Below, in pieces: positions 12,129 through 64,000 of a stretch of DNA of 64,000 nucleotides. The stretch's first letter is position 1, and each line of letters begins with the position of its first letter. The stretch is from NCBI GenBank assembly GCA_023105745.1, contig JALGQZ010000007.1, positions 51,751,569-51,815,568 of the forward strand, written 5' to 3'. Below the pieces are notes generated by a model. The model saw nothing but the letters and a program-made list of their open reading frames with translations, made no database searches and had not been told where the DNA came from. The position numbers were made by a program, and so were the translations under genes. The stretch is from Austropuccinia psidii (Eukaryota > Basidiomycota > Pucciniomycetes > Pucciniales > Sphaerophragmiaceae).

Positions 12129-14156
12129 TGTAAGGTTTGACCATGAAACAATAAGTAAAAATTACTAATTTATTACTTATTGTACTCTGAATGTCCTTAT
12201 AATTAAAATAAATAAGATTAAAATAATAATAATAATAAAGAAATATTATTATTATGGCGTAAATATATTATATTATTAAATAAATATAATAATATAAATT
12301 AATATTATATGAAATTATAATATTATAAATAATATATTAATATAAAATAATTAATATATTATAAAGCTCTTTGTTATTGTTACCAACAAATAATAAAGGC
12401 GTAAAAAACTGTTTTTTATAAATAAAAAACAATTAATAACAATAATATTACTAATATTAAAGTTATATATTAATATAAATACTATTTATATTAATTAAGA
12501 ATTATTAAGAGTAATAATAAGAGAGAAATTATTATAATAAGATGAAATAACCTACTTTTAACACTTAAAATAATAATTTTGAGATATTTTACGCCAAAAG
12601 AATATAATACAACCTTTTCAAATTGTATTTACAATAAAAAATAAAGAAAATTACTAAATTTCTTGATTTTATGTGGAAATGAGTTTATAGAGAGATTTAT
12701 GACAAAAACAATTAAAGAATTGATTTAATCACGTAAAAATAGTGATTAATATTAAGATGGTCTTTGGTCTTTAATAATATAAGAGTTTTATATATAAAGA
12801 ATCAAGAAAATTACCTTTTATTTAATTGATTTAATGTTTTTGATGCGTCTGAGGGGTAAATAGAGTAAAAAGAGCTCTATTTATAGTAAATACCTCCCTC
12901 CTAGAGTCCAACAGGCTTCTAGTAGACGTGTACTGATCATATCCACTGGAATTGATCAATATTTTAAGGTTTGAGGGTGATTACATCATGATCAAACCAT
13001 ATTACATCATTATTACACCATTATTTAGAGTTATCACTGTAACTCTAAGTTTGATGACATCATAGGCTTGGCAGAACCCCAAATTTCGTGGATTTTATTA
13101 GTTTTAATCATAAACTAATAGTATTCACCAATTTTATCACTCTTAAGACTGTTAAACTTAAATTAAGGTTACAGTATGTGATCATAGCTGCTCAAATTAA
13201 GCTCAAACTTTGATCCTCAATAACCTTTAAGATTTACACGCTACAGCAATTCAGAGAGTGAATTCTGATAGCCTGGCATAACCTTATTATGCTGCCAAGA
13301 GCTTTTCATTACATCATCAAAACTCTAATTTTGATGATTTTTCTTGTAACTCATCTTTTCTGTCGAAATTCAATATTTTAAACTTCAAACCTTGATTTCA
13401 GGGGGTTATACCCTGAATTTAATAATAAAAATTACATCATTCTTCACGAATGAACTAGGAGAATCCAACTGTGTACTTTTTTTTTAAGTTTGGAGCACTT
13501 TCACAACAAAGTGGTCAACAGCTCTGTTGATTTTTATCAATAATTCATCATAGGTTTTAACCTTGTTTATAATTTGTAAAATAAAGTTCATATCTGTGTT
13601 CTTACAGTAATTACGTGGTAACTTTTTTTTTGGTTCATCATTCTATCATGTATAGTTTAGAAGATATTAGCTATGATCCTTGAATATATGCATTGACCAA
13701 AAAAGTGCATATATTCAGGATAATTCCTTAAGTATTAAAATTGGAAATTAGCTTATTAATTGTTTTATGTGTGGATTTTTATGGGGAATCCACTGGTACA
13801 ATTTACTTCACATGTTGTTTCATTAGTGTTTGAGATAAATAAGGTTTTATGGTTTTTATAAGGTATTATACCTTATAATTCTATAAATATTGACTTTACA
13901 GATATACCATAAAAATGGTATACGTGAATTTTTCCATGGGGAATCCAATGGTATAATTTATTTTACATGTTGATTCATTGGTTTTTAAGTTAAACCAATT
14001 TTTGTACCAATTTATGGTATTTTTTGTATATTTAAGTAATTATTCTTAATGTGTAATTATTCTAAGTAATTTTAATATAATTATATTAAAGGTATAATTA
14101 TTCTGAGTCTTTTTTGTGACCTTATTGGGTATGTGGTCATATCTCAAAGGCTCACA
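12129..14156 (-). mobile_element. 3' LTR of element C
   Basis: It runs from TGTGAGCCTTTGAG (minus strand, from 14156) to AAACCTTACA at 12129. It has the same length as the 5' copy. The part near 12129 is extremely AT-rich with ATTATTAT-type words. The most GC-rich part (about 12830-13090) contains a run CCTCCTAGAGTCCAAC that is also found in the degraded C-type LTR around 45890. Confidence 0.95.
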
Positions 14157-14274: not shown

Positions 14275-16133
14275 TTATTTTTCAGGTTTTCTTTCATGTC
14301 TGAATCTTCTTAGTAATTTGTCAGCATTTGTTATATCTTTCTCAAGTAGCCATTCATCTTCCTGAGTTGAATTTCTATACCTTACAAGGTATTCCCTTTC
14401 TTTTTTGTTTCTTGTCCTTCTTTCTTTAAGGACTTTTACTATTTTCTTTTCCTCTCCTTCCTCCAAGGGGGGAATCTCAAGTGGGGGTTTATTTCTTAGT
14501 GGAAATAACTCCTTGTCACTTGAACTGTAAGGTTTTATCAGACTTACAGGGAAAGTTGGGTGTTTGTTCATTAGTTCACCTGTGAGTTCTAATTGCACAG
14601 CATTGGGTCCATGGAGTGCTTTTATCATAAATGGTCCTGCAAAGGAATCTTTCAATTTCTTTGGGCCTTTTATGTTATTGAAATTAAGGGTTGATACTAA
14701 AACCAAGTCTCCTATTTTGAAATCAGGTGGTTTATGACTTTTATCCCATCTTTCTTTTGCATATTTAAAAGAATCTTGCATGCATCTGTTTGCATGGTGT
14801 CTTGCTTTGTCAAGCATTATCTTGAAACTGCTTGCTGTTGGATGTATATCCACTAAGTCCTTTTTGAGGGTGTCATAAGGAAGTCTTGGATTCCAACCTT
14901 TCTCTAGCATTGCTGGTGTTTTGCCAGTAGAAGAATGGATTGATGTTTTATATGCCAGTTCAAGTGCTGGTATTAGTGTACACCAATCATGGGTAAAACC
15001 ATCAGAATCTTTGAATTCTAGCCCATAAGCACAGAATCTTCTGATCATATCCTCTAGGGTCTGTATCATTCTTTCTGCTAGACCATCAGTTTGAGGATGA
15101 TAAGCTGTTGAGAATGATAATTTTGTCCCAAACAAGTTATGGAGATTTGTCCATAATGCTGAAGTGAACTTTGGGTCTCTGTCACTTATAATATTTTGGA
15201 ATAAGCCTGTGTGGCTAATGACTTTATTCCATATCATTATGGCTGTATCCATAGCTGTGTGAGCTTTATGACATGGTAAGAGCATGGGAGTTTTACTGTA
15301 CCTGTCAACTAACACTAGGCATGCATTATAACTCCTGTCTCCTCCTGGAGGTAAGGCTGTTACCCAATCCATATGAACTATTTCCCATGGGGATTTTGGT
15401 TCTTGGATTTGGATCATCATTCCAAATTTCTTTCCTGTGGCTCTGTTGGCTTTTTGACATCTGTCACAGGTTTGGCAGTACTCTGCAACATCTTTCTTCC
15501 AATTTGGCCACCAAGAGCAGGTTTTCACCCTCTCTAGTGTCCTATCTTCTGAGAGATGTCCAGATGCAACACTATCATGACAATCATGTAAAATAGTGTT
15601 TATTAGTGTTCTATCTGTTAAGGCCATAACACATGTGTGTTTTGTTCTATGGTAAAGGATTCCATCAAGGAGGTGAAATCTTCCTTCATCATATGCCTTT
15701 TTCCATATTTCATCTAGTTTTGATGAAAGTGATGGATCTTTGCAGTCTTTCATTAGAAGTTGGCTTAATATATGGCAATTTTTGTCTGTCTTATAGCTTT
15801 CTTTAACTTGGTTAAAGAATTCTGTGCCAATGTCTGTAACACATATTCCTTCTATATGGTGCTCCTCTTGTGGTACCCATGCTGGATTGTCAGGGGTATT
15901 TGCTAGAGCCCATCTACTAAGACCATCTGCATTTTTATGAATATTCCCAGATTTATGAACAATAGTCATATTTCCTCTATATTCTTGGATAGCAATTTGC
16001 CATCTCAGCATATGTCTATTTGGAGTCTTCATATTTAATAGTGATTTCACAGCATTACAGTCTGTGATTACATCAAATACTGTGCCATCCAAATAATAAT
16101 GCAGTTTTTATAAATCCCATACTAGGCATAAGC
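14275..16133 (-). pseudogene. Element C Pol, end of RNase H through integrase and chromodomain tail
   Basis: The open frame 16092-14275 (605 residues) starts in RNase H (DVITDC) and carries an HHCC zinc-binding region (C-X2-C in CQTCDRCQ), the integrase core (MDWV, SDRDPKF, AERM as D, D, E) and a C-terminal chromodomain-like segment with EYLVRYR and DEW, ending in RRFRHERKP. Upstream the frame continues to about 16133 past a TAA stop at 16108-16110. It is separated from the Gag-Pol frame by a 5-bp tandem duplication (ATTCCATTCC on the plus strand, 16134-16143). Both defects lie inside RNase H, so this was one pol gene that has broken. The integrase itself looks intact. Confidence 0.92.
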
Positions 16134-19100
16134 ATTCCATTCCATTTGGCTTGCTCCATACCTTGCTTCTGTTGGCTTTATCTGCCTTGAAATGAAACAA
16201 ATTGGTCCTTCCACTGGTTTGTCATTGATAATTTGTGTTTGGTGAAGTGCAGCACCTAGTCCTTCTCCACAAGCATCAATGTACAGTTTGAAGGGTAGTT
16301 TCCAATCTGGCATCAGAAGAAATGGGGCATTTGTTAAGGAATTTTTCAATTCTTCATATGCCTTGACTCTTTCTTCTGTCATCTCATAGACTGTTTGTTG
16401 GTCACATAGCTTATACAAGGATTTAGCAATCTTTGCAAAGTCCTTTATATGCTGTCTATAGTAACCAGCAAATCCTAGAAATGATTGCATTTCTTTTTTG
16501 GTTTGAGGCATTGGCTTAAGTAGTACTGCTGCTACTTTATTTTTGTCTATGCCTAGACTAAGGCCAGATACTACATGTCCTAGTGCCTTTAATTCACTGT
16601 ATGCAAAATGACATTTTTTCAAGGAAATTTTCATATTTACTTGGACTATTTTCTGTAATACCCTTTCTAGTCTTGTAAGGTGATTTTCCCAAGTTTCTGA
16701 GCAAACTATGATATCATCAATATAGATAATCAACCATCCTTCTGATAATTCTTCAGGGAATATTGTATTCATCATTCTTTGATAATGGGAAGGTGCATTT
16801 TTTATTCCAAATGGCATTCTTAAGTATTCAAAAATTCCACAATGGACTATTATTCTTATTAATTTCTTGGCATTGTCTGTTAAGACATTTTGATGAAAAC
16901 CCTTCAGAGCATCCATAGCTGTGATGAACTTAGCTTGTGAAAATTGGGTTAATGTCTCATGGATTCTGGGTATTGGATATCTGTCTGGAATGGTATAGGT
17001 ATTCAGGGCTCTGAAGTCTCCTACCATCCTTGATTTTCCATTATGCCAAGTTATAATGACAGGTGTAGTAACTTCTACTTGTTCATTATGTCCAACCTTT
17101 CTTAATACTCCAAGGTCCATTAATTCTTTAATGTGCACTTCTAAGGCTTCTCTAGCTCTTGGACTGGCTGGATAAGCAGGTCTTCTTAATAAAGGTGGGT
17201 AAGGTTTTTCTACATTAAGAATTATATCCACTTCATGTTCAATTATGGCACCTAGTGGCTCTTTGTCAGTTGCAAAGGCATTTTTATACTTAAATAAGAG
17301 ATCAATCAATTTTTCTTTCATTTTTTCTGTTAATTCTTGATTGAATTCTGCCTCTATGAGTTGTTCAGATATAAAAAGTTCCTTTTCTGGAATTTTTTCT
17401 TCATTCTTAATAACTGTGATTTGTTTTTTGTTATTTAAGAATCCAAACTTTTGTCTTTTGTTATCTCCTATGGTAAAATATCTATCCTTTTGGTTGGAGA
17501 TATCTATACCATAGATTGATAAGTAGTCATTCCCAAGTATGAAATGATTACTAGTACAGTTGTCCATTACTACAAACTCTACTTTAATTCTGACACATTG
17601 TGAGGGATGAGGAAAAATTAGTGTTAAATCAATTATTCCAAGGGGCTTCATGCTCTGACTTGCACTACTAAATTTGACACCTTGTATTGGCATAAGTTTT
17701 TCTTGCCAGTCTGGGACAATGGTTTTCAAATAACTTTTGCCAACACAAGTGCAATATGCTCCTGTATCCAAGTTAACCTTTCCTTCTTGGTTATCAACCA
17801 TAACAATACTAATACTTGATTTTCCAGCTGTATATCCCATTCCTCTTGCAGGTTTGGTTCTATACATTTTGGCATCTTGTATGTTTGTCAGATTTGTGTC
17901 AGATGTTCCAACTTGTGGCAAGTTTGAGTTAACATCCAGTACTTCATAAATTATATCAATATTATTAATTTGTGCATTAATTATATTGATTTCATCACTT
18001 TCAGAGCTTCCTGACTCTTCTGTCTCTTTTTCAGAGTCTGATTCCTCTTCTTTGTCATTGTGGTTTTCTGTTTCCACAATTTCATTAATCTTTGCTTTTT
18101 TAAGGCAATTATTGGCTAAGTGTCCAATACCTCCACATTTATGGCATTTTCTTTGCTCATTATTGTTGGATGTATTGGGCTTAAAGGATTCTTTTGATTT
18201 ATCTTTTTTGATAAATGGTTTATTTGGGCTTTTAATGTCCAATTTTTTCCAAGTCCTGCCAATTTTTGTTCTTGTCACTATATCTTCTAGTGCATTTATA
18301 TACTCTTCTGTGGAGCATGGTTCTATGCACCTGCTTCTTAGGGCATGTTCTAGTTCCCCTCCACATTTTTTAAGTATTTTCATATGCACCATCTTCTGTG
18401 ACATTTCTGGGTACAGTGCATTAAGCCTTTCAACTTGTTTTAAGAACCAAGTTAAAGTTTTATCTTTCTCTGGGTCAAAGAAAGATTTTTCAAATGCATT
18501 TTCTATCTTATACCTCCAGGCATCATTTGCCCACTTGGTGATTATTTCTTGTTTCCACCAAGACCAGGTATTTTTACCATTTGTCTGTCTTATGCCATAA
18601 TACCATCTTTTTGCAGATTTCTCAAATAATGAATGTAATCTTGCAGTGATTAATTCATCTGGTATGGCATAGTCTTCTTGTAACATGTCAATTGTTTTAA
18701 TAAATGACATGTGGTCATATTCACCTTCTCCTGTGAATGTTGGCCATTCCTTCAATTGAGGTGCTTCTTTCATTAAGACTTGGTTATTGTCTTGGTGACT
18801 CAAGTCTGTTATGAAAGGATTTGACAATTCGTCTTTTGTTTCAACAGGGCTTCTTATATGAGAAAATGGTGTTGATAACTTTGGCATATTTAAATTAGCC
18901 TCATTAATTTTATCCATTTTTTCTGTAATAAGCCTTATTTCACTTTGAATATCATCTTTCAGATGCATTCTTGCTTCATCACTTTTTTCCACATGGTCCA
19001 AAAGTAATTTTTGGTGTGATGAAGTCTTTTCTTCAAATTTTTCTACAGAAATACTTAATTTATTTAATTTTTCTGTAAGATTGTCAATACTCACATCATC

Positions 19101-20078
19101 ATTGATTGTCAAAGTCTTGTCTTTGATATCTTTTATGTATTTATACAATTCTTGTTGTCCTTTTATTAATTTTTGAGTATTGTCAATTAAATTCTTTGGT
19201 TTATTATTTTCAACAATAAACTTAATGTTGTCAATTTCTTTTTTGTTTTGCACAACAATTTTTGTTAAAGAAGATAAATTGTTATTTATTTCTTGTAGTG
19301 ATAATAAACTATTTTTAATTTCTTTTAGAGGTAATATACTATTTTTAATTTCTGTTAAAGTATTTACAACATCTTTGGACAAGGTTATTTCTTTGGGAAA
19401 TGAGGTGGTCTCATTCTTTGCTGTTCCTTGTCCTTGAATTCCATCAAGGTTCTGGCCATGTTGAAAACATTGTCCATGGCATCCTTTTGGATTCTTGGGA
19501 TTCTGTAACTTGGGGAATATGGTTTCCTCCAATGCTTTTTCTTGTTCTTCTTCCCTTCTTGGGGAAGTGGGTTGGCTTGAGGCTTGCTGGTAGAGGCTAC
19601 TGGTGCTTCTTCCTTGGTTGCCTCCCTCTTTTTGGCATGATAATCCTTGATTTTTTTGATTTGAGGTTTGGATGACAGTGGATTCCATCCATTGGAGTAT
19701 TTCACTATCTCCTCCTCTTTGAGGAACTTTTTCAGGATGTGCCAGGAGTTCATCACTCCTTGGTTTATTTGAGGCAGCATTTCCCAGTCTTTGTCCTTGT
19801 ATACTGTGTAATACTGCTTGTACTGGCTCATGTAGATGTCTATTTGAGCCCTCTGAATGTGATTTGTACCTGTTTGAGTTACTCATACTTAGTTCCAATT
19901 CAGGCTCAGATATCATGGGCATTTCTGGGACTTGCCTTTGGGATAAGGCACTTCCTTGTGTGGATTCTGTTCCACTGGGGATATTGCCCTTTCTTTTCCC
20001 TTTTGAGGGATCAATTCTACCTCTGAGTCCAGCTCCATCTGATTGGATGGAGTATTGGGAACCTCTTCTGGTAGTCAT
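16122..20078 (-). CDS. Element C Gag-Pol frame (Gag, protease, RT, part of RNase H)
   Basis: This is an uninterrupted 1318-residue frame. Residues 1-230 overlap ORF1 and are rich in Q, S, G and N. Residues about 235-430 are predicted coiled coil with leucine/isoleucine heptads. A capsid-like region follows ([13 protein letters not shown], then tryptophan-rich stretches), a CCHC knuckle ([14 protein letters not shown]) near 643, protease DTGA near 768, RT with YIDDII near 1118, and RNase H up to a frameshift at its end. The ATG at 20078 is conserved in B (24049) and sits just upstream of a predicted 3' splice site, so this product would need unspliced RNA. Alternatively translation could enter from ORF1 by a -1 shift. 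Loss of RNase H and integrase from this frame should make it non-autonomous. Confidence 0.88.
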
Positions 20079-20303
20079 AATTTAAAGAATAAGAAAAAAT
20101 AAAAGTATTTTAGAATAAAACTCTTTTATGGCAATTTAAAAAGAGGTGCTCACCTTCAGAGTCTTGAATGGTGGGCCCTGGAAAGTCTAATTTCTTAGCT
20201 TTCTTTCTTTTGGTGATAACTGGTGTTGGAGAACTTTGACAAGTTTCTTCCACCAATCTCTCAACAGTAGCTTGGTTGTCTTCTGTTGGGTTATCTTCAA
20301 ACA
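19385..20303 (-). CDS. Element C spliced ORF1 overlapping gag (three exons)
   Basis: This is my own gene model. Exons on the minus strand are 20303-20154, 20067-19936 and 19869-19385. Introns are 20153-20068 (GTGAGC...TACCAG, 86 nt) and 19935-19870 (GCAAGT...AACAG, 66 nt, GC-AG type with CTAA branch-like word). Joined, they give about 255 codons with no stop, ending in HFPKK. Exon 1 begins with TG after a TTTTTTAG acceptor, so an upstream exon ending in A could supply a split ATG. The protein has an aromatic-rich middle (WEMLPQ, GWNPLS), a lysine-rich patch ([12 protein letters not shown]) and an end with [11 protein letters not shown]. It is in the +1 frame relative to Gag-Pol. No function is recognised; nucleic-acid binding or nuclear targeting is a guess from the basic patch. 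Element B has the same model. Confidence 0.68.
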
Positions 20304-20589
20304 CTAAAAAAGACAAATAAATATAAGTCTTTTTATAAGAAGTGTTATTTTTGGCAAGATATGGCAATTTTCCACGTAGAAATTGCTTTTATATCTTTGA
20401 AAAATTGAAATAAATAAAGAAATGAATAAAAATGAATAAAAATAACTTTTTTATTTGTTTTTAATATTTTTTAATATTTTTTATATATTTTTTATTTTTG
20501 AATAATAAGATAAAAAATGAATATGATTCTTATAAAATTAAATTATAATAAAAATTATTTTTAATTTATAGAATATCTCTTTTAATCAC

Positions 20590-20656
20590 TAGAGTCACTC
20601 AAAGAAAGTTCTTGCAAGTCTAAGGATGTGAAAAACCACGTGTAAGACAGTACAAT
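20590..20656 (-). promoter_or_regulatory. Conserved leader block of element C
   Basis: In the otherwise AT-rich leader, the minus-strand block running from TACTGTCTTACACGTGG through TTTTTCACATCC to CTTTGAGTGACTC is nearly repeated in the leader of element B (about 24400-24465). It could be a packaging or structural element, or hold the donor for ORF1 exon 1 (GA followed by GTGACT at 20598). Neither role is proven by sequence. Confidence 0.45.
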
Positions 20657-20787
20657 TGCTTTCCAAATGCCTCAATAGCTTTTAAAATCAATAAAATATA
20701 AAATTATTATATAATTTTATGATTATAAATATAATTTATTATTGGATAAACCCAAATAGAATTTTTTAAAGGTCTTTTAAGTAAATA

Positions 20788-20804
20788 TCACGGCCAGGCC
20801 ACCA
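20788..20804 (-). other. Candidate primer-binding site of element C
   Basis: Two bases after the 5' LTR, on the minus strand, is TGGTGGCCTGGCCGTGA. It starts with TGG, the complement of a tRNA CCA end. Element B has a closely similar TGGGGGCCTGGCTGTG in the same place. I cannot name the primer tRNA. Confidence 0.6.
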
Positions 20805-20806
20805 AA

Positions 20807-22834
20807 TGTAAGGTTTGACTATGAAACAATAAGTAAAAATTACTAATTTATTACTTATTGTACTCTGAATGTCCTTATAATTAAAATAAATAAGATTAAA
20901 ATAATAATAATAATAAAGAAATATTATTATTATGGTGTAAAAATATTATATTATTAAAGAAATATAATAATATAAATTAATATTATATGAAATTATAATA
21001 TTATAAATAATATATTAATATAAAATAATTAATATATCATAAAGCTCTTTATTATTGTTACCAACAAATAATAAAGGCGTAAAAAACTGTTTTTTATAAA
21101 TAAAAAACAATTAATAACAATAATATTACTAATATTAAAGTTATATATTAATATAAATACTATTTATATTAATTAAGAATTATTAAGAGTAATAATAAGA
21201 GAGAAATTATTATAATAAGATGAAATAACCTACTTTTAACACTTAAAATAATAATTTTGAGATATTTTACGCCAAAAGAATATAATACAACCTTTTCAAA
21301 TTGTATTTACAATAAAAAATAAAGAAAATTACTAAATTTCTTGATTTTACGTGGAAATGAGTTTATAGAGAGATTTATGACAAAAACAATTAAAGAATTG
21401 ATTTAATCACGTAAAAATAGTGATTAATATTAAGATGGTCTTTGGTCTTTAATAATATAAGAGTTTTATATATAAAGAATAAAGAAAATTACCTTTTATT
21501 TAATTGATTTAATGTTTTTGATGCGTCTGAGGGGTAAATAAAGTAAAAAGAGCTCTATTTATAGTAAATACCTCCCTCCTAGAGTCCAACAGGCTTCTAG
21601 TAGACGTGTAATGATCATATCCACTGGAATTGATCAATATTTTAAGGTTTGAGGGTGATTACATCATGATCAAACCATATTACATCATTATTACACCATT
21701 ATTTAGAGTCATCACTGTAACTCTAAGTTTGATGACATCAGAGGCTTGGTAGAACCCCAAATTTCGTGGATTTTATTAGTTTTAATCATAAACTAATAGT
21801 ATTCACCAATTTTATCACTCTTAAGACTGTGAAACTTAAATTAAGGTTACAGTATGTGATCATAGCTGCTCAAATTAAGCTCAAACTTTGATCCTCAATA
21901 ACTTTTAAGATTTACACGCTACAGCAATTCAGAGAGTGAATTATGATAGCCTGGCATAACCTTATTATGCTGCCAAGAGCTTTTCATTACATCATCAAAA
22001 CTCTAATTTTGATGATTTTTCTTGTAACTCATCTTTTCTGTCGAAATTCAATATTTTAAACTTCAAACCTTGATTTCAGGGGGTTATAACCTGAATTTAA
22101 TAATAAAAATTACATCATTCTTCACGAATGAACTAGGAGAATCCAACTGTGTACTTTTTTTTTAAGTTTGGAGCACTTTCACAACAAAGTGGTCAACAGC
22201 TATGTTGATTTTTATCAATAATTCATCATAGGTTTTAACCTTGTTTATAATTTGTAAAATAAAGTTCATATCTGTGTTCTTACAGTAATTACGTGGTAAC
22301 TTTATTTTTGGTTCATCATTCTATCATGTATAGTTTAGAAGATATTAGCTATGATCCTTGAATATATGCGTTGACCAAAAAAGTGCATATATTCAGGATA
22401 ATTCCTTAAGTATTAACATTGGAAATTAGCTTATTAATTGTTTTATGTGTGGATTTTCATGGGGAATCCACTGGTACAATTTACTTCACATGTTGTTTCA
22501 TTAGTGTTTGAGATAAATAAGGTTTTATGGTTTTTATAAGGTATTATACCTTATAATTCCTTAAATATTGACTTTACAGATATACCATAAAAATGGTATA
22601 TGTGTATTTTTCCATGGGGAATCCAATGGTATAATTTATTTTACATGTTGATTCATTGTTTTTTAAGTTAAACCAATTTTTGTACCAATTTATGGTACTT
22701 TTTGTATATTTAAGTAATTATTCTTAATGTGTAATTATTCTAAGTAATTTTAATATAATTATATTAAAGGTATAATTATTCTGAGTCTTTTTTGTGACCT
22801 TATTGGGTATGTGGTCATATCTCAAAGGCTCACA
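20807..22834 (-). mobile_element. 5' LTR of element C
   Basis: It is 2028 bp, the partner of 12129-14156, with about 28 substitutions and no indels by eye. It is flanked on the outer side by the GAGAC duplication at 22835-22839. It presumably holds the promoter for the minus-strand transcript. Confidence 0.95.
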
Positions 22835-24049
22835 GAGACTTTCCTTAACAGAAATTTTTTCTTCAGTTAAAGGTGTAGAATGTCTTGGCATATGTGGTTC
22901 ATGATTCTTATGAATTTGTTCCACACTTGCAATTATTTCATTCTTCAACTTCTGCCTTTCACTGTCACTTTTTTCTAAGTGTATAGCAAATTGGTTGGTA
23001 TTCTCAATTATTTTTAAGACTTGGTCTTGTAAAATTGTAAGTCGATTATTCACTTTGAAAATGGAAAATTCTTCCATCTCATCATGCTGAACTTGGCACA
23101 TGTTTTCAATTCTTTTGCAAGAATTGGTAATTGAGTCAAGTCTGGCATGTGTCACTTGGTGAAATTCAAAGTATGTTTTATCATTTTTCTTTAATTCAAC
23201 TATATCTGATGCAATTTTAGTTAGCTTTTTATCAAGGTTACCAATTTCTACATTAATACTAGTTTGTACATCAATTATTTGCGTGGAAATTTTCTGTTCA
23301 TCCTTTCCTGCTCCTTGGCTGTGAATTCCATAAGAGTCCTGGCCATATTGAAGACACTGTCCACGGCTGAAGGCTCCAATTTGGGGATCCTGTACCCTTG
23401 TGGGTAAGGTCTGTGCCAATTGGCTTTGCCTTTTCCTTTGCCTTGATGGTTCTTGGGGCCTTTCTTCTTCTGAGGTCCCTTGGGCTTGTCCTTGGACACT
23501 CCTGGAGCTGGTTTGGAGCTGGTAGACCCCACTGGTGCCTCTGTTTCCAAAGCTGGAGTCATTTCCAACTCTTCCTTCTGGTCTATAGATAAAAGACTTT
23601 GGTTCTTCAACCAATTATTTATCTTTGTGACCTTGTCTTTGCAAGACAGGGGGCTCCATCCTCCTAAGAGCTCTATGGTCTTCTCCTGACCCAGAAAGCT
23701 CTTGATGTGTAAGTAGGAATTCATGGCCCCCTGCCAAAGGCTTGGGCATATTTCCCATTCCTCTTCCTTGGCTGCTCTGAACCAATTTTTGTACTGGCAT
23801 TGATATATTTCTATTGCTGCCACTTGAAAATGGTTCAGCCCTGGAAATAATATCATGAATTAGTTCAGGCTCAGAATTCACGTCAAAATCTGTTGGTACA
23901 GACCTTGGGGAATGGGGGGCAACTCTGGCATCCTCCAGATGTGTCTTTCTTGTGGAAGATTTGGCACTTCTGGATTTGGTCTTGCCTCTTCCTTGTCCAC
24001 ATCCATCTGGTTGGGCTGAATAGTTGCTTCCATTTCTGGTATGCACCAT
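22835..24049 (-). pseudogene. Element B Gag, N-terminal part
   Basis: The frame from the ATG at 24049 (MVHTRNGS) resembles the start of element C Gag-Pol (shared T-R-x-G-S-x-Y-S-x-Q-x-D-G). It has one TAA stop at 23615-23617 and then stays open through a coiled-coil region (LTKIASDIVELKK and following heptads) to the insertion point of element C at 22839. The remainder of Gag and Pol continues at 12128. The stop lies inside the overlap with ORF1, where the ORF1 frame is still open. It could be a simple mutation, or the upstream part of this frame may not be the true route to Gag. Confidence 0.8.
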
Positions 24050-24243
24050 TTTCACGTCAATTTAAAGATAAAAGTGAAAATATAAGATAAAATACACACC
24101 TTTTGGTGGTAATTTAGCCTTTTCTGAGTTAAATAAGGTGCCTCTTTTAGCAATTTGCACCTCAATACTTTCTTCAGATTCTGGACTAGTGATATATCTT
24201 TTACTGAGTCTGTTGCCAGCTGCACAGTATTTGATTAAAGACA
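23275..24243 (-). CDS. Element B spliced ORF1 overlapping gag (three exons)
   Basis: My model: exons 24243-24100, 24035-23904 and 23840-23275. Introns are 24099-24036 (GTGTGT...TACCAG, 64 nt) and 23903-23841 (GTCTGT...TTTCCAG, 63 nt, with CTAAT as branch-like word). Joined, they give about 280 codons without a stop. Exon 2 is 132 nt, exactly as in element C, and both introns have the same phases there. The encoded protein aligns with C over NQM, LNHFQ-like, QYK, WE, MNS, GW-PLS, the lysine/glycine-rich patch and [12 protein letters not shown]. The part of exon 3 from 23856 is already an open frame of 193 codons without any splicing. Function unknown. Confidence 0.68.
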
Positions 24244-24631: not shown

Positions 24632-26552
24632 TGTAAGATGTGACTATGAAACTGATGATAATATTACTATTAATCAAAAGTACTATGTCTGTTCTTATGA
24701 AATATAATAATAAAATATTATTATAACCACAATTAAATAATTAAAGAATTATTTCTTTCACGTGTTAAGCACTACTAGTGATTTTAACAGTGAGTAAGTA
24801 ATTGTCTACTAGAATCAATTACAAGAAGAATTTAATAATAAAAACTTCTTTATTAAAATAATAAAATTATTTTAATATATAATTATCTTTTGCAAGAATA
24901 ATTATAAAGATAATTCTTGAAGAAAACTAATTTTAGAGAAAAACTTTAAGAATTAAAGATAAATCACTCACTAATATTCCAAAGAGCTTATTGAAAGATA
25001 AGATAGAAAGATTTGACGTAGAATTGTGGATTTTAGAGGATCAAAATGAATTTATAAATGTATTACAACAATATATAGTTGATTTCTATGATTTCACGTC
25101 TTTCTGATTGATTCTGAAAGAATAAAACACTTAAGAAAAGTTTTAACTAATACTTACTTGTTGGTAATATTGATATAAATGATTAATAAGATGATGATGC
25201 GGAAAAAACAGCAAGAAGAAGCTTCTTTTAAGTCAACAACAGCTCACAGAGGCGTGCCATGGAGCAAACTGAAAAAAACAGTGAGTGAGAAAACAATAAA
25301 CCTTTTTGGATTAATGATTGCATCATCTGTTGTCACGTAAGATTATCATAATTACTTAATTGAAGCTTTTACGTGACTACCAACCCCAATATGGTTAAGA
25401 ATAAAAGGAGTAACATCTGTAAATATTCTTTTATTCCAAAATAATCATTGATTTCTCAAATTTATCAATGTTATTGCCAATTTCATCACAGGTTTTAATT
25501 ACTGTGAATTTTTGAAGATTCAGTGTTTCACGTAGAATGGTCAAAAATGGACTGTACGTAAAACTTTTAATTTTACTAGTAAACCTGTAATTCTTTTTGG
25601 TTTTACGATAGATAATACAGTTCTCCATTGGTCCTGAAAGTTTCAGAAGGATTAATTAAGAATTGTACTTTTAATGAATTTTTGAAGTTTTAACCCATTT
25701 CTACGTAGAATTGCAAATATCAGTGTTTCACTGGTTACTATGAGGTAAATCAATGGATACAAGTCCAAAAAGGGTTTTAATTCCTCTTTTGGGGTTTATC
25801 CATGGAAAGTCATTAAGAATTGACGTGGTTACAGGAGTCTAAGTAGCTCTTTACCTCCTTGGCACGTCAAAATAGCAGGTTATTTGCTATTTTCTTATGA
25901 ATTACTGTAGTTGTAACATGGTAACCAAGTTCCCAAAGTGTTTTAGTTTACTAATTGGGCCAAGATCAGCCATGGATCCAAGCTTTGGAGCATTCCACGC
26001 CTCTTAGTCCTCAGAATTTGGGTACCCTGGCTCTCTTTGATGTCTTTTGTCCCCCTTGCCTATTTTTCACGTCAAAATAGAAAGTTAAGCTTATTGAGAT
26101 ATCCACTATGGGTGTACCAAAAGTCCATGTAAGAATACCATGATATTAAGTGCTCAAAACATGCATAACACTATTCTTAGTGTATATGTAACATGGGATT
26201 TCTCACTTTCCCATTATTTTAGCGTGAAATTAAGAAAAACAAACATTTTCACAGATCTTTTATGTGGTATTGATGATGTGGTATTGAAGTATTTTCCATT
26301 TTACCACCTCAAAGAGTTAATTTGAGCTTATTCACTCTATGGAGCTACCCTAGGTGAGTTTTTGTGTAGAATCCAAATCTGGCCTTGAATCCATGGATTT
26401 ACTTACTCAATAAAAAGTTATTCATCTTTTCTGAAATGAAAAATGATGAGTTTTGAATATATGCATGATATATGAGTTATGTATAATTCAAAATTTCTTT
26501 TTAAGATAATTGTGGCCTATTTGGGTATGTAAAATATACCTCAAGGCTCACA
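24632..26552 (-). mobile_element. 5' LTR of element B
   Basis: It is 1921 bp, partner of 5568-7491, followed by the ATGGC duplication at 26553. It shares with the solo LTR at 43980 the sequence around CTTATGAATTACTGTAG and AGTGTTTTAG where the 3' LTR differs. Confidence 0.92.
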
Positions 26553-42862: not shown

Positions 42863-43223
42863 CTAAAACCAGGCCTTTTTTGGTCTAAACCAGGGTTCAA
42901 TGATTCCATAATTGGCTTTTCTGTTTTCAGAGTGTTTTCCACAATTGACAAGAGTAAATTTAACTTTTGGAGTAAGAAAATTGATGGCTATAAAAGAATG
43001 TCTTCTTAGCCCCACTTTTCCCTTCATGTTAGAATCTTTTCCTTTTATAATTAGTTTAAACACTGTTAAACCAATCAATAAAAGATTCCAACCAACCTTT
43101 TTAAATCCTTTTAAGCCTTCTAACCTCGTGAGAAAATCAATATAATCACTGTTTGCAACTCTTATAATCATTTTTACCCCTGAACCGCCCCAAAAGTGAA
43201 TTAAGGAATCTTCAATCACTGAT
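42863..43223 (-). other. Antisense open frame inside E LTR (copy 1)
   Basis: On the strand opposite to the LTR there is an open frame with a run HFWGGSGVKMII and later GWNLLLIGLT and RRHSFIAINFL. It corresponds residue for residue with a frame in the LTR at 48563 (49671-50015, minus). No family is recognised. It may be non-coding sequence that happens to be open, or the relic of a captured gene. Confidence 0.35.
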
Positions 43224-46200
43224 TGTAAGGTTTGACTATGAAACAATAAGTAAAAATTACTAATATTTTACTTATTGTACTTTGAATGTTCTTATAAATG
43301 CAACAAATAAGATAAAAATAATCATAATAATAAAGAATTATTATAATTATGGAGTAAAATAATTATATTATTAAATAAATATAATAATATAATTTATATT
43401 GTAAAAAAATAATATAATAAATAAATATCTTAATATAAGATACTTCATATATTTAAGAGAACTTTATTATTGCTACCAACAAACAATAAATGCGTAGAAA
43501 ATTGTTTTTCATTAATAAAAAAACAATTAATAACAATAATATTACTAATATTAAAGCTATAAATTAATATAAATACTATTTATATCAATTATAGAATTAT
43601 TAAAGTAATAATAGAGAAAAATTATTATTATAAGAGAAATAGCCTACTTTTAATGCTTAATGTAATAATTTTGAATACCTTTACGCCTAAAAATGTAAAT
43701 ACAACTTGTTTAAATTTTAGTTACAATACAATTTAAGAGAAATTACAATTTTTCATGATTTGACGTGGAATTGAGGTTTTTAAGAGAAATTTAGACAAAA
43801 CAATTAAATAAATGCAATAATCACGTGAGAGATGAAGATTATTATAAGATTAGCTTTTGCCTTTAATAATATAAAAGTTTTATATATAAAGAATAAAGAA
43901 ATTACCTTTTTTTGATGATTTAATGTTTTGTAAGTGTCTGAGGTGAAAACAGAGTAAAAAGAGCTCTACTTATAGTAAATGTAAGATTTGACTATGAAAC
44001 TGATGATAATATTACTATTAATCAACAGTACTATGTCTGTTCTTATGCAATATAATAATAAAGTATTATTACAACAACAATTAAATAATTAAAATTATTT
44101 CTTTCACGTGTTATACACTACTAGTGATTATAACAGTGAGCAGTAATTGTCTACAAGAATCAATTACAAGAAGATTTTAATAATAAAAACTTCTTTTATT
44201 AAAATAATAAAATTATTTGAATATATAATTATAATGATAATTCCTGAAGAAAACTAATGATAGAGAAAAACTTTAAGAGTTTAAGATAAATGACTCACTA
44301 ATACTCCAAAGAGCTTATTGAAAGATAAAAGTAGAGAAATTTGACATAGAATTGTGGATTTAAAGGATCAAAATGATTTATAACAGTATTACAACAATAT
44401 ATGGTTGAATTCAATGATTTCACGTCCTTCTGATTGATTCAGAAAGTATAAAACACTTAAGAATAGTTTAACTAATACTTACTTGTTGGTAATAATGATT
44501 TAATCAAATCATAAGATGATTTGATCTGGAAAAAAAAGCAAGAAGAGGCCTTTATTAAGTCAATAACAGCTCACAGAGGGGTGCCATGGAGCAAGCTGAA
44601 AAACCAGTGAGTGAGAAAACAATAAACCTTTTTGGATTATTGATTGCATCATCTGTTGTCACATAAGATTATCATAATTACTTAATTGATGCTTTTATGT
44701 GACTACCAACCCCAATATGGTTAAGAATAAAAGGAGTAACATCTGTAAATCTTCTTTTATTCCAGAATAATCATTGATTTCTCAAAGTTATCAATGTTAT
44801 TGGCAATTTCATCACAGGTTGTACTTACTGTGAATTTTTGAAGATTCAGTATTTCACGTAGAATAGTCAAAAATGGACTGTAAGTAGAACTTTTAATTTT
44901 ACTAGGCAAACTGTAATTCTTTTTGGTTGTACCATGGATAATAAAGTTCTCCATTGGTCCTGAAAGTTTCAGAAAGATTAATGAAGAATTGTATTTTGAA
45001 TGAATTTGTAAAGGTTTTACCTCATTTCTATGTAGAATTGCAAATATCAGTGTTTAGCTGGTTGCTATGAGGTAAATCAATGGATACAAGTCCCAAAAGG
45101 GTTTTAATTACTCTTTTAGGGTCTATCCATAGAAAGTCATTAAGAATTGACGTGGTTACAGGATTCTAAGTAGCTCTTTACCTCCTTGGCACGTCAAAAG
45201 AGCAGGTTATTTGCTATTTTCTTATGAATTACTGTAGTTGTAACATGGTAACCAAGTTCCCAAAGTGTTTTAGTTTACTAATTGGGCCAAGATCAGCCAT
45301 GGATCCAAGCTTTGGAGTATTCCACGCCTCTTAGTCCTCAGAATTTGGGTACCCTGGCTCTCTTTGATGTCTTTTGTCCCCCTTGCCTATTTTTCACGTC
45401 AAAATAGAAAGTTTAGCTTATTGAGATATCCACTATGGGTGTACCAAAAGTCCATGTAAGAATACCATGATATTAAGTGCTCAAAACATGCATAACACTA
45501 TTCTTGGTGTATATGTAACATGTGATTTCTCACATTCCCATTATTTTGGCATGAAATTAAGAAAAACAAAAGTTTTCACGGACCTTTTATGTGGTATTGA
45601 TGATGTGGTATTGAAGTATTTTCCATATTACCACCTCAAAGAGTTAATTTGAGCTTATTCACTCTATGGAGCTACCCTATGTGAATTTTTGTGTAGAATC
45701 CAAATCTGGCCTTAAATTCATGGATTTACTTACTCAATAAAAAGTTATTCATCTTTTCTGAAATCAAAAATGATGAATTTTGGATATATGCATGACTTAT
45801 GAGTTATGCATAATTCAAAATTTATTTTCAAGATAATTGTGGCCTATTTGGGTATGTAAAATATACCTCAAGGCTCACAGTAAAGACCTTCCTCCTAGAG
45901 TCCAACAGGCTTCTAGTAGACGTGTATTGATTCTTCCTACTGAAATTGATCAATATTTTGAGGTTTGTCGATGATTACATCATGATCAAACCATCTTACC
46001 TCATGATTACGTCATTATTTAGATTTATCACTATAACTCTAAGTTTGATGACATCATAGGCTTAGAAGAAGCCCAAAATTCGTGGATTGTATTAGTTTTA
46101 ATCATATTTTAATAGTATTCACCAGTTTCATCACTTATATGACTTTTAAACCTAAAATAAGATTACAGTGAGTGATCTTGATTGATCAAATTTAAGCTTA

Positions 46201-47106
46201 AGCTTTGATCATTAATGACTTTTAAGTTATACACGCTACAGATATTCTGAGAGTGGAATCCGATAGCATGGCATGGCCTTTTCAGACTTCCAAGAGCATT
46301 CGATTACATCATTAAAACTGTATTTTTGATAATATTTCTTGTAACTCCTCTTTTCTGTCAAATTTAATATTTTAAACTTAAAGCAATGATTTCAAGAGGT
46401 TATACCTTGAATATTGTAATAAAAAAACATCATTCTTCACAAATGAGCTAGTAGAATCCAACTGTTTACTTTCTTTTAAGTTTGGACCACTTTCACAACA
46501 AAGTGGTCAACAGCTCTATTGATTTTAATCAATAAACCATTACAGGTTCTAACCTTGTTTATAGCTAGTGAAAGATAGTTCATTGCTGTGTTCATACAGT
46601 AATTAAATGGTGACTTCATTTTTGGTTCATCACTGTATCATGTATATTTCAAAAGATATCAGCTAAAATCCTTGAATATATGCATTGACCAAAAAAGTGC
46701 ATATATCCAGCCGAACTGCTTAGGTATTGACTTTGGAGATTAGCTTCTTAATTGTTTTATGTGTGGAATTTTATGGAGAATACAATGGTACCATTTATTT
46801 TACATGTTGTTTCATTGGTATTTGAAATAATCAAGGATTTATGTTTTTTATAAGGTATTATTACTTATAACTCATTAAATATTGACTTTACAGATATGCC
46901 ATAAAGGTGGTATATGTGTATTTTACCATGGGGAATCCAATGGTGTAATTTATGTTACATGCTTATTCATTTGTTTTTAAGTTAAACCAAGTTTTATGCC
47001 TATTTATGGCATTTTTGTAGTCTTAAGGTAATTATTTTTATGTATAATTATTTTGAATATTTCTTGTGACCTTTATGGGTATGTGGTCATGTCTCAAAGG
47101 TTCAAA
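43224..47106 (-). mobile_element. C-type 3' LTR of element D, split by a solo LTR
   Basis: Positions 43224-43979 and 45885-47106 together form a degraded C-type LTR: TGTAAGGTTTGACTATG at 43224, the GAGCTCTA...CCTCCTAGAGTCC stretch across the split, and AAAGGTTC at 47106, where intact copies have GGCTCACA. Positions 43980-45879 are an inserted B LTR. Divergence from element C LTRs is high, with several indels. PPT GGTGGTAGGGAA follows at 47107-47118 (minus strand), then the pol tail. Confidence 0.85.
43980..45879 (-). mobile_element. Solo B-family LTR with TSD GTAAA
   Basis: It is 1900 bp, highly similar to the LTRs of element B. It is flanked by GTAAA at 43975-43979 and 45880-45884, and the host C-type LTR continues on both sides. 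Having one LTR between perfect duplications shows a full B element that recombined between its LTRs, leaving this one. Confidence 0.93.
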
Positions 47107-47225
47107 TTCCCTACCACCAAAAAAAATTGTACCACAATCTGATATGTGTAATTGGGGTATCATCCGCTGTCCTACCTCTTCAATGGACTTTGTTAGTCTT
47201 GAAGCTCAATAATGCTTTAACTTTT

Positions 47226-47666
47226 CTATTCTTTAGGTTTTCTTTCATGTCTGAACCTTCTTAGTATTTTATCATCATTTGTTATATCTTTCTCAAGTAG
47301 CCATTCATCTTCTTGAGTTTAATTTCTATACCTTACAAGGTATTCTCTTTCTTTTTTGTTTCTTGTCCTTCTTTCTTTAAGGACTTTTACAATTTTCTTT
47401 TCTACTCCTTCTTCCAAGGGGGAAATTTCAAGTGGGGGTTTATTTCTTAGTGGAAATAACTCCTTGTCACTTGAGATGTAAGGTTTTATCAGACTTACAG
47501 GGAAAGTTGGGTGTTTGTTCATTAATTCACCTGTGAGTTCCAATTTCACAGCCTTGGGTCCATGAAGTGCCTTTATCATAAATGGTCCTGCAAAGAAATC
47601 TTTCAATTTCTTTGGACCTTTTATGTTATTGTAATTAAGGTTGATACTAGGACCAAGTCTCCTATT
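47226..47666 (-). pseudogene. Element D pol tail (integrase C-terminus, chromodomain)
   Basis: The minus-strand frame matches the end of element C Pol ([37 protein letters not shown]). It has a nonsense codon just after RYRN (TAA where C has TCA) and a 1-bp deletion near 47640. The true C-terminal stop is TAG at 47226-47228. The gene is cut at 47666, where an oppositely oriented E pol begins. Confidence 0.88.
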
Positions 47667-61633: not shown

Positions 61634-63006
61634 TCATAATTGATGAGACTTTTGTGTCTTTGTTAGGGTACTAGTGTGGTTCATGTGACCTTGATCCAAC
61701 AAATTTCTTGTGGTCATACCCTCTTTGTCTGGTGGTTTATGTTTCAAACCATCCAGATGTTTGGTCATTGGTTTCCTCCTTTTTAAGTGAGCTGAACCAA
61801 TTTCTTTTGCTCCATTGTTCTTGAATTCCACCAAATATTCCTCATTAGGGTTAGTTTCACAGCCATTTCCCACACTATCAGAGTCAGCTTCATGACCTTC
61901 TTGGTCTTTTCTTGTTTCTTTCTCTCTTTCAAATATCTCTTCACTGTCTTTGGGAAAATTATCTACATAGTGATTGGGTGATTCACAGATGTGAGATCCT
62001 GTTGTAATTTCAGATTCTGAATCATGAGTTCCTTTTTCTTCACGGGTTGGATTCTCCCTGTTATCACCAGTACTATGGGTATTGTATCTACCAATAGATG
62101 TTCTAATCCTTACTTATTGCAAAGTAGTTGATATTTCATCCAAAGTAGATTCTTTGGAGCATCTGCATTTTACTTCATGCTCTAAGTCTCTTGGTAGTTT
62201 GGTCAGCAGTTTGTGATTTCTCATTTCTGTTGTTATGTGAGGGTCAATATCTATTATCCTTTTTGACTGTCTAAGACACCAATCATATGGATCTTTGTCC
62301 ACTGTGTATCTATCATTTCCAAAGGAGAGGGCTTTCTGCCATATCAATGTATCATTTGTGTACTTTTTGATTATTTGGATCCTCCACCATGGCCAGTTTC
62401 TTCTGCCATGGACTTCTTTCATTTCTGTGTACTAAATACTAGCATGTCCTTTGAAAGCTGTATTTAATCTGGCAGTAATTCAGTAATCGGGTAGACTTGC
62501 TACATCAATGAAGATTCCATCAATATAATCAATGAGATCCATATGATCATATTCTCCTATGCCAGAGGATTTGGGCCAAATTGAGGCCTCTGACAGCTGT
62601 TTAAGTGCTTCCTTCTCTGAATAAGTCATTTTATAACAATCTTGGTATTTTGATGAGGATCTTGGCTTATTCTCCAATAAGGCATCTGGTTTGATGTCTT
62701 CCTGGTGGTGTGGATTATCCAAAACATTGCCTTGTGTTTGAGGCATATTTTTTGGCAGACATTAAACAATTTCTCAATATCTTGATGCAGGTTTTCCCTA
62801 TCCCTTTTGCAGTGATTTTGCTCCTCTAAGACTTGATTTAGTCTTTTTGTCTCTTCTGAGGCTTTACTCAATTCAGTGTAGTCCTCTTGAAGAGTATGAA
62901 TAGCTTTGGTTTGTAAGGTATTAACCTCTTTTAACCTTGAAATATTTTCATGGAGTCTTTCAAGCTTTTTTTGAGTTTGTTCTACAACTGGGAAAATTTT
63001 ATCCAT
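61634..63006 (-). pseudogene. Element G ORF2: coiled coil and capsid-like Gag, no pol
   Basis: The frame from MDKIF (63006) is a coiled coil (TQKKLERLHENISRLKEV and on). After a 1-bp shift near 62750 the frame from 62746 reads on to 61634 with three stops (62480-62482, 62432-62434, 62114-62116). It contains IGEYDHMDLIDYIDG and the tryptophan-rich RRNWPWWRIQIIKKY, typical of the capsid part in these families, and DLEHEVKCRC like B and C. After it comes an acidic stretch and EYLVEFKNNG, which could be a trace of a Pol C-terminus. Zinc knuckle, protease, RT and integrase are all absent before the PPT, so a large internal deletion is likely. Confidence 0.78.
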
Positions 63007-63740
63007 AGCGTATTACTACTTATGGTACTCTCAAGCATCACAACATTGTGTTTAATCTTAGTCAAGATATTTTTCCTTATTCTAGGGCTGCTAGATTCAT
63101 TAGAAGTATTTACAACTGTTTGTTGTTGTTTTATACTTCTTCTGGTAGGTCCAACAAGTTCTGGATCATAGGATCTGACTCTTTCTGCCTCTGGTTGAAA
63201 GAAGTCTTGTTCTTTTCCTATGATCCTCTTCTTCTCCTGTATTCTACCTGTGATTGGAAAGTATGATGACTCTTGGTCACTTATCTGCTGGTTCCTGAGT
63301 GGTGTGAAACAACTAGGGAGTTTGGTTGGGTTACCACTCCTTATGAGCCCAAAAGAGGCAGAGTATGTTATATCTGGTTCAATTTCTCTTCTATGATAAG
63401 TTCTTTGAAGAATATCTCCTTGAGGGAAATCTTCTGGATAATTTATACAGGTTCTTTCTAGTAGAACTCTAGGTTGAATTCCCTGTCTGCCATTCTCCAC
63501 TGGAGAAGTTCTTTGAAGATTTGATGGGTTGAAATAAACTATTCTATGAAAGTCATTCCTGGAGGTCTTCTGCTGGAAACCATTTTGGAAGGTGTAGGTA
63601 GGTGCATTTTGCCATGTCTTATGACTTTGAGAAACTTCAACTTCTCTCCTTTCCAGGCCTCAAGTACTGCTTATGGTTGATTCTATTTGTAAGCAATAAT
63701 CCCTTGGAACACCAAAGTAACTGAAATGAGGTGTTATCAT
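62982..63740 (-). pseudogene. Element G ORF1
   Basis: This frame starts at ATG 63740 (MITPHFSYFG), has one TGA at 63660-63662, and is otherwise open to TAG at 62982: about 252 residues, close to the 255 and 280 of the spliced ORF1 of C and B. It has polar, arginine-rich and glutamine-rich segments (RRSIKQQQ) and overlaps the start of ORF2 by 25 bases in the relation -1. No intron is needed here. I see no database-type domain. It is probably the N-terminal Gag or an accessory product of this family. Confidence 0.65.
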
Positions 63741-64000
63741 TTCTGATTTGTAAGGTGAGAACTTTATCTAGTTGATTAAATCCCTGTTTTGTTAGGAATC
63801 AATACATCAGTTTGGAAAAATTATTATTGAAACTATCAATAATTATCGAATCAATGTTTCACACCAGTTTGGATGGAAAACTCAATTTTGAGGGTTTTGC
63901 TTGAAGAGAAATCCAAACAATATATACTTTGTATATATTCAAGAATTAAGTAAGAGAAATATTATTATATTTCTTTTATAATAAGTATTATTATTGAAAT
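63741..64000 (-). other. Leader of element G, cut by window edge
   Basis: AT-rich sequence upstream of ORF1 on the minus strand. The primer site and 5' LTR would lie beyond 64000. No other feature is seen. Confidence 0.5.

Follow-up and report, generated by a model that had tools for sequence, protein, structure and literature searches.

Element C, a Ty3/Gypsy element in the 64,000-nucleotide stretch of the Austropuccinia psidii genome analysed here (the window), raises the question of whether the DNA at the start of its Gag-Pol region encodes two proteins in different frames. The initial annotation proposed that three exons join into a second frame (ORF1), lying in the +1 frame of Gag-Pol, and that the splicing that creates ORF1 removes the Gag-Pol start. 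If true, a fungal LTR retrotransposon uses alternative splicing to express a pair of overlapping genes that share a start region, a strategy for overlapping genes otherwise tied to complex retroviruses. Judged from sequence comparisons of element C with the related families B and D, it is likely that these elements form a Ty3/Gypsy group with two overlapping genes, which would be expressed by splicing a single LTR transcript in different ways.

Overall architecture of element C

Element C spans 22834-12129 on the minus strand, as do all features of elements C and B described below. The 5′ LTR (20807..22834, TG...CA) was identified by reading the sequence and by comparison of the LTR pair, and the 3′ LTR (12129..14156) by the same comparison. 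The two LTRs, of 2 kb each, are 98.6% identical, and GTCTC flanks the element at both outer edges as a target-site duplication. The LTR pair and target-site duplication, together with a Pol in the order RT, RNase H, integrase, agree with Ty3/Gypsy (Metaviridae). The Gag-Pol frame (16122..20078) comprises an N-terminal extension, a CCHC knuckle, RT and the start of RNase H. A second frame (14275..16092) holds the rest of Pol, namely the end of RNase H, H2C2, the integrase core, a Tf2-1-like SH3 domain and a weak chromodomain. The Pfam domains follow in order, with PF00078 and PF17919 in the first frame and PF17921, PF00665 and PF24626 in the second; the match to the chromodomain PF00385 is weak (E 0.014; 15.7 bits, where the cut-off is 25.1).

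Element C is inserted within element B, whose LTRs (26552-24632 and 7491-5568) are 97.2% identical and whose internal region is consequently divided into 24631-22835 and 12128-7492. The Gag-Pol frame of C is broken within RNase H at ~16122 (16122-16092). Since B is open at the same place, the break is specific to this copy of C; the 1318 codons previously assigned to Gag-Pol are thus the correct length for this copy and not for the element in general, as B reads on.

Several other repeats are found in the window. A C-type 3′ LTR and pol end occupy 43221-47666, with the LTR interrupted by a B-type LTR (43980-45879). A large 23-bp minisatellite (30821 to ~33050; 88 register copies of a 300-nt reference) abuts a Ty3 pol fragment on the plus strand. 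A more distant Ty3 element, with a gag 33% identical to that of C, is located at 62087-64000 on the minus strand. The frames beside its Gag-Pol N terminus are rich in stops and show no ORF1 counterpart, so the overlap is not general among the elements of this host.

The overlapping reading frames of element C

ORF1 exon 1 (20154..20303, 150 nt) is preceded by TTTTTTAG and begins with TG. It is followed by a predicted GT-AG intron 1 of 86 nt (20068..20153, GTGAGC...TACCAG), exon 2 (19936..20067, 132 nt), a predicted GC-AG intron 2 of 66 nt (19870..19935, GCAAGT...AACAG) and exon 3 (19385..19869, 485 nt), which ends in TAA. The Gag-Pol frame is also open across exon 2, and exon 3 is dual coding with Gag-Pol. 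The initial annotation of this layout is borne out. Joined together, the three exons give a stop-free frame of 254 codons plus TAA (about 255 had been estimated); the Gag-Pol start codon (20076..20078) does lie within intron 1, its A being the 11th base before exon 2; and the splice sites are plausible, although the GC donor of intron 2 had gone unmentioned. As had also been claimed, the unspliced ORF1 frame is closed at intron 2, where it meets three stops; the Gag-Pol frame has none there. The length of intron 2 is a multiple of three, and its retention therefore leaves Gag-Pol open.

The openness of exon 3 in two frames was evaluated by permuting synonymous codons. With the ORF1 amino acids held, the Gag-Pol frame has 0 stops against 5.5 expected (P = 0.0009); with Gag-Pol held, the ORF1 frame has 0 stops against 2.2 expected (P = 0.037). 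Under full codon permutation, 0 stops were reached in none of 10,000 trials in either direction. The third frame of exon 3 contains 11 stops. Exon 1 alone is marginal, its open ORF1 frame having a P of 0.05 in C (0.02 in B); its GC content is 0.41, compared to 0.20 in the preceding leader.

Equivalent layouts in families B and D

Element B contains an ORF1 counterpart at 23275..24243. Its exon 1 (24243-24100) is preceded by TTTTTTCTAG and likewise begins with TG. Intron 1 (24099-24036) includes the Gag-Pol ATG at 24049, and is followed by exon 2 (24035-23904), a GT-AG intron 2 of 63 nt (23903-23841) and exon 3 (23840-23275), ending in TAA. Two ORF1-frame stops, and none in the Gag-Pol frame, are present in intron 2. 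The Gag-Pol frame of B has one stop in the overlap stretch and is decayed elsewhere.

The gigabase genome size of A. psidii is attributed mainly to Gypsy elements in the available text of one report (PMC8063080). We sampled the same genome (1,015,390,075 bases) at random, as twenty 10-kb stretches at round coordinates (200 kb), and found relatives of ORF1 exon 3 in six of the twenty. Three of these loci (L035, L036 and L037) are B-like, and three (L041, L042 and L046) represent a third family, D, with 34-38% tblastn identity. Exon 1 is readable in four of the six, as L035 and L046 run off the end of their stretches. A first look at the genome yielded 1829 C candidates and 3028 D candidates, of which 40 each were scored; the families look abundant.

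The D locus L042 has an exon 1 that follows AG, begins with TG and contains no ATG. Its intron 1 (GTAAGT...CAACCAG) is 64 nt long and carries the Gag-Pol ATG 14 nt from its 3′ end, and the ORF1 of L042 terminates in NVFQMARTMMELQKKEEARLRFQK. The ORF1 frame of L042 is open throughout without an intron 2, and L041 and L046 carry stops or shifts. The D layout is repeated in four more close copies among the 40 scored, which have no ATG from the primer-binding site (PBS) to the Gag-Pol start. Across B, C and D, the Gag-Pol ATG is located 11-14 nt before the end of intron 1, and the Gag-Pol proteins share a common start pattern (M, one or two residues, TR.G..Y). In L037, a decayed B-like copy, no Gag-Pol ATG is left, and the supposed junction start runs straight into a stop.

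Leader, start codons and candidate LTR donors

The 5′ LTR of C has a TATA-like box near 21563 and a putative transcription start near 21535. From the LTR end to the Gag-Pol ATG (20079..20806), the leader contains no ATG, against about 9-12 expected, and the 1457 nt between the inferred transcription start and the Gag-Pol ATG contain one, against 15-20 expected. The same 728-nt stretch after the LTR has zero, one or two ATGs in 13, 13 and 2 of 28 C copies, respectively. The leader of B has one ATG in 582 nt (7-9.5 expected), and those of the D loci L041 and L042 have one and none (7 expected in each). As the leaders are nearly free of ATGs, the Gag-Pol ATG would be nearly the first in unspliced RNA. 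The leaders of B and C also have a block in common between the PBS and exon 1 (~20655-20620 in C), which reads ACTGTCTTACACGTGG[TC]TTTTTCACATCC, with one extra T in B.

Exon 1 of C lacks an ATG in all frames. ORF1 would therefore need a start formed where an upstream exon is joined on, or else would use the ATG of exon 2 at 20038. The latter is the first ATG after exon 1 in the predicted C RNA lacking intron 1, and it is in the ORF1 frame. Exon 1 starts with TG after AG in B, C and D alike, and has no ATG in B and D either. In B, a candidate leader donor of full consensus, ACCAACAA/GTAAGT (25157..25158; the slash marks the splice point), is located in the LTR, and the 12 bases upstream of it are identical in three B-type LTRs. 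Joining this donor to exon 1 (AG/TG) would create an ATG (A/TG). The candidate donor of C, AAAAG/GTAATT (end of exon 0, 21492..21493), lies in the 5′ LTR; the motif is present in three C-type LTRs of the window and is kept in 27 of the 28 copies, the remaining copy having one base change nearby. This best C donor ends in G and would give G/TG instead of ATG. An exon-0 donor producing A/TG in all families was considered and rejected: B fits, but D offers a candidate only and the best donor of C does not comply, ending as it does in G. A start codon made at the junction is therefore hypothetical for the group and unproven for C.

Proposed expression of the two genes

We infer that splicing occurs, is partial and acts as a switch. 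RNA retaining intron 1 would present the Gag-Pol ATG nearly first and be translated into Gag-Pol, and would also serve as genome RNA. Splicing of intron 1 would remove the Gag-Pol ATG and splicing of intron 2 would take out the +1-frame stops, so that the spliced RNA would make ORF1. This protein would be about 195-255 aa long, acidic at its start, with a helical core that a lysine-rich linker connects to a helix at the C terminus. A more detailed version of this scheme is possible, yet doubtful: the LTR donor and exon 1 together would make the ORF1 start (A/TG), the spliced RNA would lack the PBS as well as the Gag-Pol ATG, and ORF1 would act on its own RNA (in export, packaging or translation), setting the balance between messenger and genome in the manner of complex-retrovirus regulators.

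Conservation of the two frames

The ORF1 proteins of the three families share 39-46% of aligned residues (73/158 exon-3 codons for C-B, 59/151 for C-D and 65/155 for B-D). Differences in exon 3 are concentrated at the third position of ORF1 codons, with 55/52/92 at positions 1/2/3 for C-B, 68/54/99 for C-D and 71/57/105 for B-D. When the Gag-Pol proteins are held, the C-B ORF1 score of 400 compares to a null of 57 ± 29 (reached in 0 of 5000 trials). Conversely, with the ORF1 proteins held and codons permuted, the C-B Gag-Pol score is 226 against 103 ± 28 (0 of 5000); by identity alone, Gag-Pol matches at 50/157 positions against 41 expected (P = 0.019). Gag-Pol also exceeds its ORF1-held null for C-D (P = 0.0013) and B-D (P = 0.0067). 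The third frame is not conserved beyond its null in any pair (C-B 93 against 77 ± 28, P = 0.28; C-D P = 0.067; B-D P = 0.74). Gag-Pol-frame stops in the overlap number 0 in C and D and 1 in B, against 5.4-7.9 expected. These comparisons point to purifying selection on both frames between families.

Within the C family, we compared 32 loci: the 28 nearest of the 40 scored copies, including the one in the window, and four more (L049-L052). Intron 1 is 85-87 nt long, and exon 2 (132 nt) and intron 2 (66 nt) have constant lengths in all 32. Exon 1 is 150 nt in 30 of the 32; in L025 and L052 its length differs by a single base and ORF1 is broken. The intron-1 sites and the GCAAGT donor are kept in all 28 nearest copies; ORF1 reads to the same stop in 26 of them, and Gag-Pol is open over the overlap in 26. 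As these copies were picked for their similarity, their integrity is evidence of youth and not of selection. DNA polymorphism among them amounts to one shared variant and 29 rare ones, which is too little variation. Among 122 protein rows of the C family, the shared ORF1 changes are not depleted for damage to Gag-Pol: 114 such changes have 44 synonymous, 65 nonsynonymous and 5 stop effects in Gag-Pol, so that the synonymous share is as expected (33-43%) and stops are above expectation (1.6-2.9%). Perhaps most of these changes arose after insertion, which would account for the absent Gag-Pol signal. Purifying selection on ORF1, which the initial annotation had made a condition of its proposal, is found between the three families; the within-C-family test gave no signal for Gag-Pol.

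Fused copies and a frameshift alternative

Three of the four additional C-type loci have ORF1 and Gag-Pol fused in frame. In L049 and L050, the fusion comes from an additional A close to the ORF1 end, which also cuts short the frame that starts at the Gag-Pol ATG; in L051 the fusion is due to a deletion, and the older L052 has another shift near the same place. Such copies could reflect decay or a misassembled base run, or could belong to a variant that tolerates the fused protein. The fused copies also favor a reading in which ORF1 is the true N-terminal part of Gag, joined to Gag-Pol by ribosomal or transcriptional frameshifting near its end, with the frame from the ATG at 20078 unused. An open frame of 1867 aa in five of the listed matches of the database protein P0112, and a CCCAAAG heptamer directly before the ORF1 stop of C, favor the same reading. 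However, the four loci were taken from the matches of P0112, which is itself fused, and three were chosen for long frames, and they do not represent a family-wide frequency. The end of ORF1 in B has no CCCAAAG, and we dropped a conserved −1 slippery site for this reason. Furthermore, the Gag-Pol frame upstream of the supposed shift is conserved in B, C and D beyond the ORF1 constraint and nearly devoid of stops, and the position of its ATG and its start pattern recur in all three families. We therefore regard a frameshifted Gag as unlikely.

Database models and start of ORF1

A profile search with ORF1 gave 2028 protein matches at E ≤ 0.01; all 120 listed of these, and all 120 listed of 310 homologues, carry A. 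psidii names. Of 165 database proteins compared, 33 are B-type ORF1 models (~232 aa) that, by a strict pattern, have exons 2 and 3 connected where predicted, and P0139 and P0161 show the same join by eye. Many B-type models begin just after the intron-1 acceptor. By a rough pattern, 108 models are C-type. Half of these (54) begin with the ATG of exon 3 and 10 with that of Gag-Pol, while one (P0002) crosses the join of exons 2 and 3. A gene predictor that ignores GC donors would generate C-type models of this kind. With residues 1-430 of Gag-Pol as a protein query, three proteins were found, the low number probably resulting from a length filter.

The starts of these models, at the exon-3 ATG in half of the C-type and often right after the intron-1 acceptor in the B-type, would also suit production of ORF1 without intron 1 splicing, by leaky scanning to 20038 or from internal starts, with intron 2 alone being spliced. 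This is quite improbable. The exon-3 ATG of C is missing from B, and exon 1 is open in the ORF1 frame in C, B and D. In addition, exon 1 lengths within related pairs differ by multiples of three (144 nt in B and 159 in its copy L036, a difference of 15; 198 in L042 and 174 in L041, a difference of 24), whereas intron 1 differs by single bases (64 and 65 nt in each pair), and the ORF1 frame is unbroken across the exon 1-exon 2 join in all four. That the second frame has no product and arose by chance through composition and common descent is very improbable despite the marginal openness of exon 1, given the B-C ORF1 score far above its null and the third-position excess in all three family comparisons.

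We favor two genes expressed by alternative splicing. Counted against it are the missing Gag-Pol signal within the C family, the fused L049-L051, the shifted L052, the decayed L037 and the off-by-one exon 1 of L025 and L052, as well as the GC donor and G/TG junction of C, the lack of intron 2 in D, and the 10 of 108 models that start at the Gag-Pol ATG.

Properties of the ORF1 protein

The ORF1 protein of C has a pI of 9.4, composed of an acidic first part (4.7), a basic middle (9.6) and a basic end (10.2). The predicted structure of a B-type relative (mean pLDDT 58) has helices between residues 47 and 136 and at 197-222, connected by a low-confidence link. ORF1 has no significant match in Pfam, PDB sequences, PDB folds or predicted viral structures, the best Foldseek hit in the PDB being a MIT domain at E 2.0 and that in the viral library having E 0.16, and a scan of viral contigs gave no relative. 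Our guess is that ORF1 binds nucleic acids, in an accessory or particle-associated role.

Comparison with known systems

Additional reading frames are known from plant LTR elements. Retrosat2, a Ty3/Gypsy-type element, has an extra ORF (ORF0) before gag-pol, and Ogre is called partially spliced in a title among the references of the same report (PMC3485330). Going by the available text, Ogre and Retrosat2/RIRE resemble the elements described here in being Ty3/Gypsy-type with an additional ORF before gag-pol. In contrast, ORF0 of Retrosat2 lies upstream of gag-pol, with no overlapping frame or spliced-out start codon described in that text (PMC3485330). Barley Bagy2 produces a spliced RNA for an additional ORF, but this ORF is likened to retroviral env and no overlap with Gag-Pol is described in the available text (PMC7264820). 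The main text of a 2025 paper on rust transposons does not contain the terms gag, splic or open reading frame (PMC12210899). Among the titles and abstract beginnings retrieved from the open PMC literature, no fungal LTR element is named with a spliced frame overlapping Gag-Pol.

In Drosophila copia and barley BARE1, a spliced RNA encodes Gag in the same frame. These elements are similar to those described here in that splicing alters the product of the element, and differ in that no new protein is known to be made in another frame. Complex retroviruses, including foamy viruses, splice a single LTR transcript alternatively to express accessory frames, which overlap structural genes, and the leader donor of foamy viruses is located in the R region of the LTR. 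So far as the sequences indicate, the likeness to complex and foamy retroviruses would consist in an overlapping accessory frame obtained by splicing and in an LTR leader donor, as proposed for B. The difference from complex retroviruses is that the predicted spliced frame and the N-terminal part of Gag-Pol share the same DNA, with the Gag-Pol start codon itself in the intron.
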